DNA of 64,000 nt, taken from assembly GCA_029569255.1 (NCBI GenBank), contig JAKQUO010000008.1:62001-126000 (forward strand), given 5' to 3'. This DNA comes from Acidobacteriota bacterium. GTDB taxonomy: Bacteria; Acidobacteriota; Aminicenantia; Aminicenantales; Saccharicenantaceae. The translations under genes and the position numbers were made by a program. Positions 16,789-63,772 of this stretch are shown here, piece after piece. Positions within the stretch are counted from its first letter, which is position 1. Each line of letters starts with the position of its first letter. The notes under the pieces were generated by a model. It worked only from the letters and a program-made list of their open reading frames with translations, did no database searches and was not told the origin of the DNA.

Positions 16789-16858
16789 GGGGACATGTCC
16801 TCCCAGTAGATGTCCCCATTCAGGCCTACGGGACACGTACCGGGGCGGTACATGTCCC
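16789..16858. repeat. family B palindrome B1 (degenerate left unit plus right core 16830-16858)
   Basis: GGGACACGTACCGGGGCGGTACATGTCCC is identical to the core in B3 (62534-62562). Confidence 0.85.
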
Positions 16859-16928
16859 GACACGCGCCTCGAGCACCTGGCAACCGATCCCATGGCCACC
16901 CACAGAAAATGGAAGAGAACCTTAATTT

Positions 16929-53455: not shown

Positions 53456-53814
53456 TGGACGAGAACGCGTGGGTCAAGGAATTCGCCGCGGCGGTGACCG
53501 TCTGCGACACGGAGGGCCGCATCCTCGAGATGAACGACCGCTCGCGCGAGACGTACGCGGCCGAGGGCGGCGCCGCGCTCCTCGGCACGAACCTCCTCGA
53601 CTGCCACCCCGAGCCGAGCCGGTCGAAACTCGCCGCGATGATGGGGGAGCGGCGGACGAACGTCTACACAATCCGGAAGAAGGGCCGGAAGAAGCTCATC
53701 TACCAGGCGCCGTGGTACAAGGACGGCGCCTACGCCGGCTTCGTCGAGCTCTCGCTCGAGGTCCCATGGGACATGCCCCACTTCGACCGTGATAGGAAGG
53801 GGTCAAACCTTTAA
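53456..53814 (+). CDS. small single PAS-domain protein
   Basis: MDENAWVKEFAAAVTVCDTEGRILEMNDRSRETYAAEGG...FVELSLEVPWDMPHFDRDRKGSNL; stop codon lies inside repeat A4. Confidence 0.75.
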
Positions 53815-53852
53815 TTGTTTAATTTTTAAAAAATTAAAGGTTTGACCCCTTC
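53796..53852. repeat. family A palindrome copy A4 (short-loop form)
   Basis: GAAGGGGTCAAACCTTTAATT-(short A/T loop)-AATTAAAGGTTTGACCCCTTC. Confidence 0.95.
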
Positions 53853-55718
53853 TTAAAGCAGCGCGGTGGTCAGCAGCGGGACGTAGGTGATGAGCAGGAC
53901 CGCGGCCAGCCCCAGCAGCAGAAAGACGAAGACATCCCGGTAGACGCGGGCGATGGGCTCGTTGAACCGGTAGGACGCCAGGTAGAGGTTCAGCCCGACC
54001 GGCGGCGTCAAGTAGCCCAACTCCAGGTTGGCCAGGAAGATGATGCCCAGGTGGACCGGGTGGATGCCGAACAGGCTCCCCAGCGGGATGATGAGCGGCA
54101 CGACGACGAGGATGGCCGAGAAGATGTCCATGAGGCTGCCGACGACGAGCAGGGCCAGGTTCAACAGGAGCAGGAAGACGTACTTCGACGAGATCGTCGC
54201 CGCGACCCAGTCGCTGAGCCGCTGCGGGATCTGGGCGTCGATGACGTAGTAGGACAGCCCGTTGGCCAGGGCCAGGATGATCAGGACGCCGCCGATGATG
54301 GGCACGGCCTTGAGGAAGATGCGCGGCAGGTCGCGGACCCGCATGTCTTTCTTGATGAACGTCTCGACGATCCAGACGTAGAGCAGGGCCGCCGCCGCGC
54401 TCTCCTGGAGGTTGGCGACGCCGCCGAAATAGAGCCCGAAGACGAGGAACGGCAGGAGCAGCTCCCAGAAGGAGTCGACGAAGGCCCGGGCCGCTTCCCG
54501 GGCGCTCAGCCGCCGTCGCGGCAGGCCCCGCCTCCACGAGTACGCGATGCCGATGGCCATGACCGAGACGACCAGGAACACCCCCGGAAGGAGGCCGCCG
54601 ATGAACATGTCCTTGATGCTCGTCTGGGCGGTGACGCCGTAGATGATGACCGGCAGGCTCGGCGGGAAAAGGAGCCCGATCGACCCCGACGCGGTCAGGA
54701 GCCCGACGGTGAACCTTTTCGGATACCCGGCCTTCTCCAAAATGACGGCCAGAAGGCCCCCCAGGGCCAGGATGGTCACGCCCGAAGCGCCGGTGAAGGT
54801 CGTGAAGAAGGCGCAGACGACGACGGCCATGACCGCCATCCCGCCCGGGAACCAGCCGAGCATGGCCTGGAAGAAGCGGACCATCCTCTCCCCCGCCCCG
54901 CTCTCCGACAGGAAGAACCCGACCGCGGCGAAGAGCGGGATGGCCGGGATGGCCCCGCCCGTGAGCACGGTGTAGGCCTGGTTGGGGACGATCTCCAGCG
55001 GCAGGCCGCCCTTGAGGAAGAGCAGATAGCCGATCCCGCCGAGGACGGTGAAGATGGGCAGGCCGAGAAAGGCCGCGCCGAGCAGGACGACGATAAGCGG
55101 CCCGGCCGCCGCCGCCAGGACCGGTTGGAGGGCCTCGCCCGCCGCCGTCAGGGCCGGCGCGGCGGCGCCGCCCCCGCGCGTGGCCAGCTGGACGAGCGGC
55201 GGGAAGCCGAGGAGAACGCCCAGCGCGGCCGCCGCGGCCCCCGCCCAGAGGCGCTCGCGCCGCGTCTTGAGCCCGGAGACGAAGCGGACGGCCATGGCCG
55301 AGAAGCCCGCGGCCATGACCAGGACGACGAGCCGCTTCGGCAGGAAGCCGACCCGGTCGGCCGCGGTGAAGGCGTTCCAGGCGAACGAGACCGCGCTCAG
55401 CCCGAAGGCCAGGGTCAGGCCCGAGGCCAGGAGGGCCGTCAATGTCTCGGCGAAGCCCTTCAGGGACTTCGGCAGGAACATGCCCGTGGCCAGGGCCAGG
55501 TGCTTCTTCTCCCGGGCCGTGACCGCCCCGGCGACGAACGTGGCCGCCAGGACGAGGTGCTCGACGTAGACGCTGGAGTCGCGGACGCCCGTGCTGAAGA
55601 CCTTGCGGGCGGTCATCTCGACGAGCAGGAGGGCGGCCAGCAGGACGAGCGTCAGGAAGGCCAGGGAGTCCTCGGCCGCGCGAACGGCGCGGACGGCCCG
55701 ACGGAGGCTATCGGCCAC
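53853..55718 (-). CDS. TRAP transporter fused small and large permease (DctQ-DctM)
   Basis: N-terminal DctQ-like TMs, then DctM-like permease (GLPIFTVLGGIGYLLFLKGG... TPPVGLNLYLA). Confidence 0.88.
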   Translation of the reverse strand: MADSLRRAVRAVRAAEDSLAFLTLVLLAALLLVEMTARKVFSTGVRDSSVYVEHLVLAATFVAGAVTAREKKHLALATGMFLPKSLKGFAETLTALLASGLTLAFGLSAVSFAWNAFTAADRVGFLPKRLVVLVMAAGFSAMAVRFVSGLKTRRERLWAGAAAAALGVLLGFPPLVQLATRGGGAAAPALTAAGEALQPVLAAAAGPLIVVLLGAAFLGLPIFTVLGGIGYLLFLKGGLPLEIVPNQAYTVLTGGAIPAIPLFAAVGFFLSESGAGERMVRFFQAMLGWFPGGMAVMAVVVCAFFTTFTGASGVTILALGGLLAVILEKAGYPKRFTVGLLTASGSIGLLFPPSLPVIIYGVTAQTSIKDMFIGGLLPGVFLVVSVMAIGIAYSWRRGLPRRRLSAREAARAFVDSFWELLLPFLVFGLYFGGVANLQESAAAALLYVWIVETFIKKDMRVRDLPRIFLKAVPIIGGVLIILALANGLSYYVIDAQIPQRLSDWVAATISSKYVFLLLLNLALLVVGSLMDIFSAILVVVPLIIPLGSLFGIHPVHLGIIFLANLELGYLTPPVGLNLYLASYRFNEPIARVYRDVFVFLLLGLAAVLLITYVPLLTTALL

Positions 55719-59301: not shown

Positions 59302-59366
59302 GGCTCGCCCTCCCCGGCGGCGGAGGCTCCACTCTATCCGCCCCCGCCCCTCCTGTCAAACCAGAC

Positions 59367-59472
59367 GGGGTCAAACCTTTAATTTTTTAATTTTCTCGGA
59401 AATCGTTACCGGCACATTCCCCTCTCCGCATGCAGCTCGCACGAAAAATTAAAAAATTAAAGGTTTGACCCC
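59367..59472. repeat. family A palindrome copy A6 (long loop)
   Basis: GGGGTCAAACCTTTAATTTTTTAATTTT ... AAAATTAAAAAATTAAAGGTTTGACCCC. Confidence 0.95.
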
Positions 59473-59503
59473 ATCTTGCCTTTTTTTTCATAATGGAGCG
59501 GCC

Positions 59504-60655
59504 TTGAGCACCGATTTCCTCGAGTTCCGCGGCGTGTCGAAGCGCTTCGGCGCGGTCCAGGCCGTCGACGGCGTCTCCCTCGGCATCAAGAAGGGCGAGT
59601 TCTACTCGCTGCTCGGGCCGAGCGGCTGCGGCAAGACGACCATGCTGCGCCTGGCCGCGGGCTTCGAGACGCCGGACGCGGGCCGCGTCTTCCTCGACGG
59701 GCGGGACATCACCGAGCTCCCTCCCGACAAGCGCAAGGTCAACACGATCTTCCAGAGCTACGCCCTCTTCCCCCACATGACCGTCCGGGCCAACATCGGC
59801 TTCGGCCCGGCCATCGCCAAGCGCCCCAAGAAGGAGATCCGCGACGAGGTCGACCGCATGCTCGAGCTCATCCGCATGACCGGCGAGGCGGCGAAGAAGC
59901 CCGACCAGCTCTCGGGCGGGCAGCGCCAGCGCGTCGCCGTGGCCCGGGCCCTGATCAACAAGCCCGACGTCCTCCTGCTCGACGAGCCCCTGGCCGCGCT
60001 CGACCTCAAGCTCCGCCAGAAGATGCTCATCGAGCTCGACCTCATCCACGACCAGATCGGCATCACCTTCCTCTACGTCACCCACGACCAGGCCGAAGCC
60101 ATGAGCCTGAGCGACCGGATCGCCGTCATGGACGGCGGCCGCATCGAGCAGGTCGGGACGCCGGCCGAGATCTACGAGGCGCCCCGGACGAGCTTCGTCG
60201 CCGCCTTCATCGGCGACACGAACTTCCTCGAGGGCCGGGTCGAGGCCTGTCCCGACCGCGAGTACTGCCGCCTCGCGATCGCCGGGATGCCGCCGGTCCT
60301 CTGCTTCAACGACAAGTCCCTGCAGCCGGGACAGCCCATCTCTCTCAGCATCAGGCCGGAAAAGGTCCACATCTCCCACGAGCGGCCCGAGGAGAAGCCT
60401 CAGCGGAACATTCTCCCGGCCGTCGTCGAGGACGTCATCTACCTCGGCTCGACCACGAAGTTCTGGGTCCGGGCCGACGGCTACCGGATCCAGGTCCTGC
60501 GCCAGCACGCCCGCTATTTCCTCGACGAGAAGCCGCTGCGCTGGAAAGAGGACTGCTGGATTTGGTGGCACGCCGACGACGGCTTCATGCTCGACCGTTT
60601 CCGCAGGTCCGACGAGGGCCTGCTGGCCGTGCCGCCGCAGCGCGTCGGGGATTAA
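59504..60655 (+). CDS. potA: spermidine/putrescine-type ABC transporter ATP-binding protein
   Basis: TTG start likely (SD-like GGAGCGG upstream); GPSGCGKTTMLRLAAGFE, LSGGQRQRVAVARAL, LLLDEPLAALD. Confidence 0.88.
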   Translation: MSTDFLEFRGVSKRFGAVQAVDGVSLGIKKGEFYSLLGPSGCGKTTMLRLAAGFETPDAGRVFLDGRDITELPPDKRKVNTIFQSYALFPHMTVRANIGFGPAIAKRPKKEIRDEVDRMLELIRMTGEAAKKPDQLSGGQRQRVAVARALINKPDVLLLDEPLAALDLKLRQKMLIELDLIHDQIGITFLYVTHDQAEAMSLSDRIAVMDGGRIEQVGTPAEIYEAPRTSFVAAFIGDTNFLEGRVEACPDREYCRLAIAGMPPVLCFNDKSLQPGQPISLSIRPEKVHISHERPEEKPQRNILPAVVEDVIYLGSTTKFWVRADGYRIQVLRQHARYFLDEKPLRWKEDCWIWWHADDGFMLDRFRRSDEGLLAVPPQRVGD

Positions 60656-60786
60656 GATGGGGTCGGGTCTAACCCACTGTTTTCACTTTTAGGCAGGAAG
60701 GCTCGCGCATGGATGACGGGCGTCGGAAAAGTGAAAAAAGCAGGTTTGACCCCCTCCGGAAAGCTCCCTTCAGATTAGACCCCATC
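60656..60786. repeat. family D composite palindrome
   Basis: Outer arms GATGGGGTCgGGTCTAA / TTAGACCCCATC; inner arms TTTTCACTTTT / AAAAGTGAAAA; contains GGTTTGACCCC. Confidence 0.9.
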
Positions 60787-61650
60787 TTTAGGCGGAAGGC
60801 GGAGTGGCTGGTCACGCTGCCGACCTTCCTCTGGCTGACGCTCTTCGTCGCCGTCCCGACGCTCCTCGTCTTCGTCATCGCCTTCCGCCCGGCCAACCCC
60901 TACGGCGGCATCGGCGCCGGCTGGACCCTGGACAACGTGCGCGCCCTCGCAACGCCGGCGACCCTGGCCATCGCCTGGCGGACGCTCTGGATCAGCCTGC
61001 TGACCACCGCGATCTCGCTCCTCCTCTCCATCCCGGCCGGCTACACTATCGCCCGGGCCTCGGAACGCTGGCGGAACCGCCTCCTCATGCTCGTCATCGT
61101 CCCCTTCTGGACGAGCTTCCTCGTCCGCGTCTTCGCCTGGCGGTCGCTCCTCCACCCCGAGGGGCCGGTCAAGCGCGTCCTCGAGGCGCTCGGCCTCGTC
61201 GGGCCCGACGCGACCCTCCTCTACAATCCGGCCGCGGTCGTCCTGGTCATGGTCTACACGTTCCTGCCGTTCACGATCCTGCCGATCTACGCCGCCGCGG
61301 AGAAGTTCGACTTCCGCCTGACCGAGGCGGCCCGCGACCTCGGGGCCCGGCCCTTCCAGGCCTTCCGCAAGGTCTTCCTGCCCGGGATCCGCCGCGGCCT
61401 CCTGACGGCGGTCCTGGTCGTTCTCATCCCCTCGCTCGGCTCCTACATCATCCCCGACCTCGTCGGAGGGCCGGGCGGCGAGATGCTCGGGAACAAGATC
61501 GCCCAGCGGGTCTTCACCGACCGCAACCTGCCCCTGGCCGCGGCCCTCTCGGCCGTCCTCGTCCTGGCCGTGCTGGCCCCGCTCGCCGGCGTCCTCGTCC
61601 TCCAGCGCAAGTCGAAGAAGGCCGACATCATCATGGGAGAGGCGCCGTGA
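60709..61650 (+). CDS. potB: spermidine/putrescine-type ABC transporter permease
   Basis: EWLVTLPTFLWLTLFVAVPTLLVFVIAF; permease EAA-like loop EAARDLGARPFQAFRKVFLPGIRRG. The ATG and first ~26 codons lie in repeat D. Confidence 0.85.
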   Translation: MDDGRRKSEKSRFDPLRKAPFRLDPIFRRKAEWLVTLPTFLWLTLFVAVPTLLVFVIAFRPANPYGGIGAGWTLDNVRALATPATLAIAWRTLWISLLTTAISLLLSIPAGYTIARASERWRNRLLMLVIVPFWTSFLVRVFAWRSLLHPEGPVKRVLEALGLVGPDATLLYNPAAVVLVMVYTFLPFTILPIYAAAEKFDFRLTEAARDLGARPFQAFRKVFLPGIRRGLLTAVLVVLIPSLGSYIIPDLVGGPGGEMLGNKIAQRVFTDRNLPLAAALSAVLVLAVLAPLAGVLVLQRKSKKADIIMGEAP

Positions 61651-62420
61651 GGCGGAGCCGCTTCCCCGTCGTCGTCACCGCCCTGGTCATGGCTTTCTTC
61701 TACCTGCCCATCTTCATCCTCGTCGCCAACTCGTTCAACCCGGCCCGCTTCTCCAGCCGCTGGCAGGGCTTCTCGCTCGTCTGGTACCGGCGGCTCTTCG
61801 AGTCGCCCGAGATCTGGGCGGCCCTGAAGAACACCCTCCTTATCGCCGTCTCGGTCACGGCCGTCTCGGTCGTCCTGGGCACGGCGGCGGCCTACGCCCT
61901 CCACCGCTACGGCCAGAGCCGGCTCCAGCGCGTCCACTACACGCTGATCTACCAGCCGCTCGTCGTGCCCGAGATCCTCATGGGCATCAGTTTGCTCATG
62001 GCCTTCGTCGCGGCCGGCGTCCCCCTCGGCCTGTTCACGGTCTTCCTGGCCCACGTGACCTTCTGCGTCAGCTTCGTGGCCATGACCGTCCTCGGCCGGC
62101 TCCAGGACTTCGACTTCTCGATCGTCGAGGCGGCCCGCGACCTCGGGGCCAGCCCGTGGCAGAGCGCCCGCAAGGTCCTCATCCCGGCGCTCATGCCGGG
62201 CATCGTCGCCGGCGCGCTGCTGGCGTTCACCCTGTCGATCGACGACTTCGTCATCACCTTCTTCGTGGCCGGGCCTGGCTCGACGACCCTGCCGCTGCGG
62301 ATCTACAGCATGATCAAATACGGCGCCCCGCCGATGATCAACGCCCTGTCGACCCTGCTCCTGGCCGTGACCTTCACGGCCGTGGTCGCCAGCCAGCGCC
62401 TGGCCCGCGCAAAACGGTGA
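61647..62420 (+). CDS. potC: spermidine/putrescine-type ABC transporter permease
   Basis: GTG start overlapping potB stop; VEAARDLGASPWQSARKVLIPALMPG. Confidence 0.88.
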   Translation: MRRSRFPVVVTALVMAFFYLPIFILVANSFNPARFSSRWQGFSLVWYRRLFESPEIWAALKNTLLIAVSVTAVSVVLGTAAAYALHRYGQSRLQRVHYTLIYQPLVVPEILMGISLLMAFVAAGVPLGLFTVFLAHVTFCVSFVAMTVLGRLQDFDFSIVEAARDLGASPWQSARKVLIPALMPGIVAGALLAFTLSIDDFVITFFVAGPGSTTLPLRIYSMIKYGAPPMINALSTLLLAVTFTAVVASQRLARAKR

Positions 62421-62469: not shown

Positions 62470-62562
62470 GGGGACATGTACCTTCGGTACGTGTCCCCGG
62501 TCGTGTCCGGCACGCGTCCCCGTTCGAACATACGGGACACGTACCGGGGCGGTACATGTCCC
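62470..62562. repeat. family B doublet B3
   Basis: GGGGACATGTACC-TTC-GGTACGTGTCCCC (62470-62498) and inverted GGGACACGTACCG-GGG-CGGTACATGTCCC (62534-62562). Confidence 0.93.
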
Positions 62563-62659
62563 GACTCTCGCCTTCAGCTCTTGGAAACGATCCCGAGGCT
62601 ATTCCCCCCCTTGAAAAGGCGGACCAACTGGACTATAACGGGGACTTCGGAGCCGACGC

Positions 62660-63772
62660 ATGAACGGAACGCCCCAAGCCCACGCCCAGCCCCGCGCTCG
62701 GGCCTGCGCGAGCGCGCGGGCCTTCGCCGTTTCCGCCGCTTCGTCTTTCGCGATCGCCGGCCTCGTCGCCGCCGCCGTCCTCGCGGCCGCCGCCTGCGGC
62801 AAATCCAAGCCGGTCCTCAGCCTCTACACCTGGTCCGACTACATCAAGCCCGAGCTCATCCGCCGGTTCGAGCGCGAGCGCGGCTGCCGGGTCGTCCTGG
62901 ACACCTTCGAGTCGAACGAGGCCATGTACGCCAAGCTCAGGGCGGGGGCGTCCGGCTACGACCTCCTGACGCCGTCGAGCTACATGGTCAGCCTCATGCG
63001 CGCCCAGGGGATGCTCCGGCGCCTCGACCACGCCCTCATCCCCAACCTCGCCCACGTCGACCCCGACTACCTGGCCCTGGCCTCCGACCCGGCCATGGAC
63101 CACTCCGTCCCGTACATGATCTCAAACAGCGGCATCGCCTACCTCGAGGGCCGGGTCCGGGACATCGTCCCCTCCTGGCGCATGTTCGGCCGCCAGGACC
63201 TCCGCGGCCGGATGACCATGTTCAACGACATGCGCGAGACGGTCGGCGCCGCGCTCAAGGCGCTCGGCCACAGCATCAACACGACCGACCCGGCGGAGCT
63301 CGCCGCGGCCGAGTCGCTTCTCCTCGAATGGAAGAAGAACATCGCCAAATTCGAGAACGAGCAGTACAAGATCGGGCTGGCCTCGGGCGAGTTCCTCCTC
63401 GTCCACGCCTGGAACGGCGACGTCTTCCAGGTCCGCAAGGAGAACCCCGACGTCCGCTTCCTCGTCCCCGAGGAAGGGGCGATCGTCTCCTGCGACGACC
63501 TCGTCATCCCGGCCGACGCCCGCGAGCCCGGCCTGGCCCACGCCTTCATCGACTTCCTCCACGACCCGGCCGTGGCCGCCGAGAACACCGCGGCCGTCTC
63601 CTTTCTCTGCCCCAACAAGGATTCTTACCCGCTCCTGCCCGCGGAGATCCGCGACGATCCGGGCATCTTCATGGCCCCTGAGATCCGGGCCAGGAGCGAG
63701 TTCATCGCCGACATCGGGGCCGCCAACGCCCTCTACGTCCAGGTCTGGGACCGCCTCAAGTCCGCCCGCTGA
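62660..63772 (+). CDS. potD: spermidine/putrescine-binding lipoprotein
   Basis: Lipobox AAACGKSK; LSLYTWSDYIKPELIRRFERERGCRVVLDTFESNEAMYAKL. Confidence 0.9.
   Translation: MNGTPQAHAQPRARACASARAFAVSAASSFAIAGLVAAAVLAAAACGKSKPVLSLYTWSDYIKPELIRRFERERGCRVVLDTFESNEAMYAKLRAGASGYDLLTPSSYMVSLMRAQGMLRRLDHALIPNLAHVDPDYLALASDPAMDHSVPYMISNSGIAYLEGRVRDIVPSWRMFGRQDLRGRMTMFNDMRETVGAALKALGHSINTTDPAELAAAESLLLEWKKNIAKFENEQYKIGLASGEFLLVHAWNGDVFQVRKENPDVRFLVPEEGAIVSCDDLVIPADAREPGLAHAFIDFLHDPAVAAENTAAVSFLCPNKDSYPLLPAEIRDDPGIFMAPEIRARSEFIADIGAANALYVQVWDRLKSAR

Follow-up and report, generated by a model that had tools for sequence, protein, structure and literature searches.

A mobile palindrome between potA and potB of an Aminicenantes bacterium as the probable source of the potB translation start

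The window, by which we mean the whole 64,000-nucleotide stretch of Acidobacteriota DNA that was analysed, contains a polyamine transporter operon in which a palindromic element separates potA from the conserved part of potB. The features of this region, in window positions, are as follows.

59362-59477, strand not assigned: second element of the same family as the potB element, ending 26 nt before the potA start and separating that gene from a divergent permease gene
59504-60655, + strand: potA, polyamine ABC transporter ATPase, TTG start; TIGR01187, 363 bits, over the cut-off; ABC_tran and TOBE_2 domains
60653-60655, + strand: potA stop codon TAA, whose AA forms the first bases of the element
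60654-60788, + strand: palindromic mobile element of the potA-potB junction, 135 nt, with ends AAGATGGGGTC...GACCCCATCTT
60665-60753, + strand: inner hairpin of this element, GGGTCTAACCCACTGTTTTCACTTTT...AAAAGTGAAAAAAGCAGGTTTGACCCC, from fold prediction
60695-60701, + strand: predicted Shine-Dalgarno sequence AGGAAGG in the hairpin loop, 7 nt before the ATG, in a region pairing with the anti-Shine-Dalgarno sequence at -6.5 kcal/mol
60709-60711, + strand: ATG, the sole canonical in-frame start before the first transmembrane segment (TM1)
60709-60788, + strand: predicted element-derived N-terminal tail, MDDGRRKSEKSRFDPLRKAPFRLDPI(F)
60709-61650, + strand: potB, spermidine/putrescine permease of 313 aa; the best-scoring NCBIfam model is PotB, at 188 bits, under the equivalog cut-off; BPD_transp_1 domain
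60784-60789, + strand: codons ATC TTT, which fall inside the element's 3′ end or at its edge, placed by alignment to congeners G012, G001, G003 and G005
60790-60807, + strand: RRKAEW, conserved segment immediately before TM1
61647-62420, + strand: potC, by best match, with a 4-nt GTGA overlap with potB
62660-63772, + strand: potD, substrate-binding protein, by best match

Among these four genes only potA exceeds a curated NCBIfam cut-off, that of the subfamily model TIGR01187, and potB, potC and potD are named by best match together with operon order. Read from ATG 60709, the potB frame is open for 313 aa, with the product MDDGRRKSEKSRFDPLRKAPFRLDPIFRRKAEWLVTLPTF. Its match to the PotB chain 8y5f_B (E 8e-41) is confined to residues 36-288; since solved PotB chains are matched only from residue 36, the N-terminal tail is extra.

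The first-pass annotation described a nested palindrome of 131 nt running straight on from the potA stop. The palindrome is real, although slightly longer at 135 nt, and its contact with the stop is closer than described, the two overlapping by the AA of the TAA. It consists of the inner hairpin and an additional outer right arm, which has TTAGACCCCATCTT at its end. In DNA folding the element was more stable than all 200 of 200 shuffled sequences (z -3.96); for RNA the value was z -2.63, equalled by 4 of 200 shuffles. A genus-wide search with the element returned one extended relative (G005:C55) and one partial one (G007:C180), the remaining matches being of arm length. The extended relative, 78% identical over 95 nt, lies in non-coding DNA beside a tmRNA-like sequence. 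Its loop aligns with that of the potB element, and the triplet beneath ATG 60709 is GTT. The ATG may thus postdate the insertion, rather than having arrived with the element.

The potB element is a divergent member of a family that is dispersed through the genome. Exact termini of the form GGGGTCRRACC occur 85 times in the own genome, against 3 occurrences of the reversed control. Most of them form inverted pairs, whose stem is of the TTTAATTTTTTAATTTT type. The terminal motif is present in all 13 genomes of the genus, with a small excess over the control in the sparsest of them. The consensus over 72 ends is AAGANGGGGTC, in which the GTAG head that characterizes GTAG REPs was not found. Compared with the GGGGWSAS motif of some terminal inverted repeats, the family ends GGGGTCAA have a last base outside the consensus; the potB copy carries GGGGTCGG and GGGGTCTA, and its left inner end is GGGTCTAACC. 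Palindromes of a second repeat family (GGGACACGTACC...GGTACATGTCCC) were also seen in the window, at 16812-16884 and 62516-62588, and in L172, where the repeat is nested inside a GGGGTC element.

A gene for a Y1 transposase (PF01797) lies between family ends in the own genome (L174, 2041-3387), and in congener G008 one lies between complete hairpins (L065) whose stem is similar to the inner hairpin stem of the potB element. Inspection by eye suggests that the two transposase genes have the same neighbouring gene. Against the NCBIfam model REP_Tyr_transpos the transposase scored 65.9 bits (E 3.4e-18), below the curated cut-off of 80. The family is probably mobilized by a REP-associated (TIRYT/RAYT-like) Y1 transposase. 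The earlier description of the repeat as REP-like holds in so far as the family is tied to a transposase of this type; the term is loose in that the ends are AAGANGGGGTC and not GTAG, and the TIRtron/TIRYT branch accordingly fits better.

The same junction was compared in nine genomes of the genus, the own genome (G000) included, with one metagenome assembly per species. The junction is free of any insert in five congeners (G012, G001, G003, G004 and G009). In these, potB starts 1-5 nt past the potA stop, just ahead of the RR.xEWL segment, and in G004 it may start overlapping the potA stop. The codons ATC TTT align with the potB start of these relatives, 18 or 15 nt ahead of the EWL core. Relative to them the own genome carries an insertion and has lost the ordinary start. 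The distance from potB start to EWL core is mostly 12-45 nt in the loci examined from other lineages, compared with 93 nt in the own genome. The element-derived peptide, whose presence in repeat-free orthologues would have spoken against its recruitment from the repeat, is absent from them. The comparison thus supports the earlier proposal that an insertion displaced the original potB start and that its sequence was recruited as start and tail.

Four of the nine junctions are filled, those of the own genome, G002, G005 and G008, by different palindromes of the GGGGTC...GACCCC type, and potB is open through each. The G002 element has the right end GGCCCTGTC. No canonical start lies between it and TM1, and apart from one inside potA the only start before TM1 is an ATG within the element, with a weak Shine-Dalgarno sequence (-3.5 kcal/mol). 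In G005 a frame from an upstream ATG runs through the element (MGKMGSNLLFSKKSRFDPILRRRRAEWL), and a TTG at the junction is an alternative start. In G008 (L009) the element ends PotA early, with the tail DGFMLEGVKSPQ before the stop, and creates a 4-nt ATGA overlap with potB, whose start is ambiguous among three codons.

In a tree of the potA-potB region, the filled G005 is sister to the empty G004 and the filled G002 to the empty G003, with bootstrap values of 100 each. This pairing of filled and empty sisters indicates that the junction was probably hit repeatedly, and repeated insertion is the simplest reading of the sequences. An unlikely alternative is that the genus acquired a single insertion ancestrally, that the empty species have since lost it, and that the elements diverged in place where they were kept. 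The same kind of element does occupy the same junction in each case, the elements of the own genome and G005 have one arm stretch in common, and a short stretch around ATGG...ATGACG recurs in the loops of both the own-genome and the G002 element (local score 18, with 4% of shuffles as good); the deeper nodes of the tree within the genus are also weak (33-60). However, the four elements range from 53 to 135 nt and align with one another in short shared stretches only, without overall similarity, and the G005 junction element is a short hairpin type that is multicopy in the G005 genome. The fully supported sister pairs would moreover require repeated losses, each restoring an ordinary start.

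If the old start was displaced, the own genome's potB must begin elsewhere. Scanning the frame from 60712 to 60936 gave no ATG, GTG or TTG, the next in-frame start being GTG 60937, beyond TM1. This bears out the first-pass annotation, which had found no such codon between repeat and TM1, and the frame scan and pairing energy together confirm its choice of ATG 60709, with AGGAAGG at 7-nt spacing, as the only good in-frame start. The anti-Shine-Dalgarno sequence was read from the 16S rRNA of congener G008, which ends ...GGATCACCTCCTTT (tail CCTCCTTT), that of the own genome being incomplete. In the predicted RNA the Shine-Dalgarno sequence, except for its last G, and the ATG are mostly unpaired; the first six Shine-Dalgarno bases have unpaired probabilities of 0.77-1.0, and the last G is paired. 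The conjunction of an ATG, a Shine-Dalgarno sequence at least as strong as -6 kcal/mol and an open frame occurred once in 210 combinations (35 own-genome elements, two orientations and three frames), in the potB element. We infer that potB is initiated at ATG 60709.

It is improbable that potB instead starts at a non-canonical codon past the element, CTG 60808 or ATC 60784, leaving the element as a 5′ untranslated hairpin that only affects expression. Many REPs at annotated ORF N-termini have been argued to be non-coding, with translation possibly beginning downstream (PMC3733652), and CTG 60808 is preceded by a strong Shine-Dalgarno-like sequence (-8.3 kcal/mol). That sequence, however, is the coding sequence of the conserved RRKAEW segment. 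The six codons following the element read AGG CGG AAG GCG GAG TGG, against CGG CGG AAG GCC GAA TGG in G001, and all three differences are synonymous, as expected if the segment is translated. This argues for translation from upstream and against a start at CTG 60808, which would also drop the pre-TM1 segment kept by orthologues. ATC 60784 has no Shine-Dalgarno sequence (+0.4 kcal/mol), and no canonical potB start lies between the element and TM1.

That potB is a pseudogene or the junction an assembly artefact, so that no start is needed, is very hard to credit: these are metagenome assemblies with one genome per species, in which any single junction could be wrong, but comparable arrangements occur in separately assembled species, the potB core of 282 codons is intact in all nine genomes with dN/dS of 0.18-0.29 against congeners, and potA, potC and potD are intact.

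We therefore consider it highly probable that the inserted element displaced the potB start and that potB now begins at ATG 60709 with the element's Shine-Dalgarno sequence and tail. A non-autonomous palindromic element, probably moved by a REP-associated Y1 transposase, would have entered between potA and potB, displacing the original start that formerly lay directly at the potA stop. Ribosomes would then start potB at the ATG in the hairpin loop, guided by the AGGAAGG that the element itself provides, and would read the element's 3′ arm as a basic tail of about 27 residues ahead of TM1. The transporter presumably tolerates this tail, which would be neutral.

Elements of the family also abut other genes. 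With gene ends called by a self-trained codon model, trained on the window, rather than taken from annotation, 36 own-genome elements abut the 3′ ends of 35 genes and the 5′ ends of 37. These tallies are samples, which miss elements with a degenerate end. By the estimate of the same model, the element forms the stop codon at 23 of the 35 3′ ends: 13 times at its edge (T|AA or T|AG), nine times inside with the tail GSNL before the stop, and once further in. GSNL tails ending at the same place in the element were noted at 53794-53854 in the window and in eight other own-genome elements (L162, L165, L167, L174, L180, L188, L191 and L193). Among the 37 5′ ends, a single one lacks any start outside the element, and it is that of potB. 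Elements sampled from G005, with at least 100 matching places, and from G002 yielded no other gene needing an element start, apart from the frames through inserts in HrpA.

The HrpA-like RNA helicase gene of G005, identified by a TIGR01967 match well above the cut-off, contains three 53-nt copies in frame among the matches listed (L235, 1515-1567, 2877-2929 and 3321-3373). Each reads K(M/R)GSNLPFAAKGRFDP, with IL or LL next. The linkers at the insert sites are variable in relatives; at the second site G007 has an identical peptide, and related peptides occur at the first site in G007, G003 and G002. These in-frame copies suggest that potB is not alone in having elements of the family read as protein. 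A wider and more doubtful proposal, which we offer tentatively, is that the GGGGTC family acts in this Aminicenantes genus as a general remodeller of gene ends, providing stops, in-frame linkers and potB starts, that target sites are reused across species, and that potB thereby exchanges a start at the potA stop for an independent one in a hairpin loop.

Mobile repeats can, on this evidence, rewrite the beginnings of working genes. Repeats at annotated N-termini are usually dismissed by invoking a downstream start, and potB has none of the canonical kind. The relatives preserve the states before and after an event that apparently took place several times at one junction, and form a natural series in which to study the incorporation of a selfish repeat into a gene and the way in which an operon maintains translation of a subunit that has lost its original start. 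Full-text searches on Aminicenantes REPs and on repeats that give a start codon, in a literature collection of partial coverage, yielded no description of a conserved gene that has its sole canonical start inside an element of this kind.

Comparable elements are known elsewhere. Some TIRs flanking Y1 transposases share GGGGWSAS, and TIRYTs occur in Acidobacteria (PMC3733652). TIRtrons with their TIRYTs, and GTAG REPs with RAYTs (PMC3733652; PMC2817692), resemble the present family in being dispersed short palindromes that flank a Y1 HUH transposase gene; the ends here, AAGANGGGGTCAAACC, are near but not identical to GGGGWSAS and are not GTAG. The stop codons of neighbouring ORFs often come from REP termini, and some of these repeats are located at the N-termini of ORFs or inside them (PMC3733652). 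Many of the N-terminal cases were deemed possibly non-coding there, since downstream starts may be used, whereas potB has no canonical downstream start before TM1. Rickettsia palindromic elements (RPEs) are reported (PMC3733652, PMC2229807) as lying in frame in conserved proteins, sometimes N-terminally, and as being expressed. The potB tail and the G005 HrpA inserts are likewise palindromes open in frame in conserved proteins, here with predicted translation, and the HrpA inserts are an RPE-like case by analogy of behaviour rather than members of that family. RPEs belong to another lineage and are described mostly as lying within ORFs, whereas the potB element gives a putative Shine-Dalgarno sequence and start codon. 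The pneumococcal BOX element provides the start codon of a transcribed ORF (PMC3049150), but BOX ORFs match hypothetical proteins only and are without good Shine-Dalgarno candidates, while potB is a conserved transporter subunit with a Shine-Dalgarno sequence. Precedents for reading mobile palindromes as protein thus exist in Rickettsia and among REPs; the novelty here lies in the lineage, in the recruitment of a start and in the recurrence of that recruitment.
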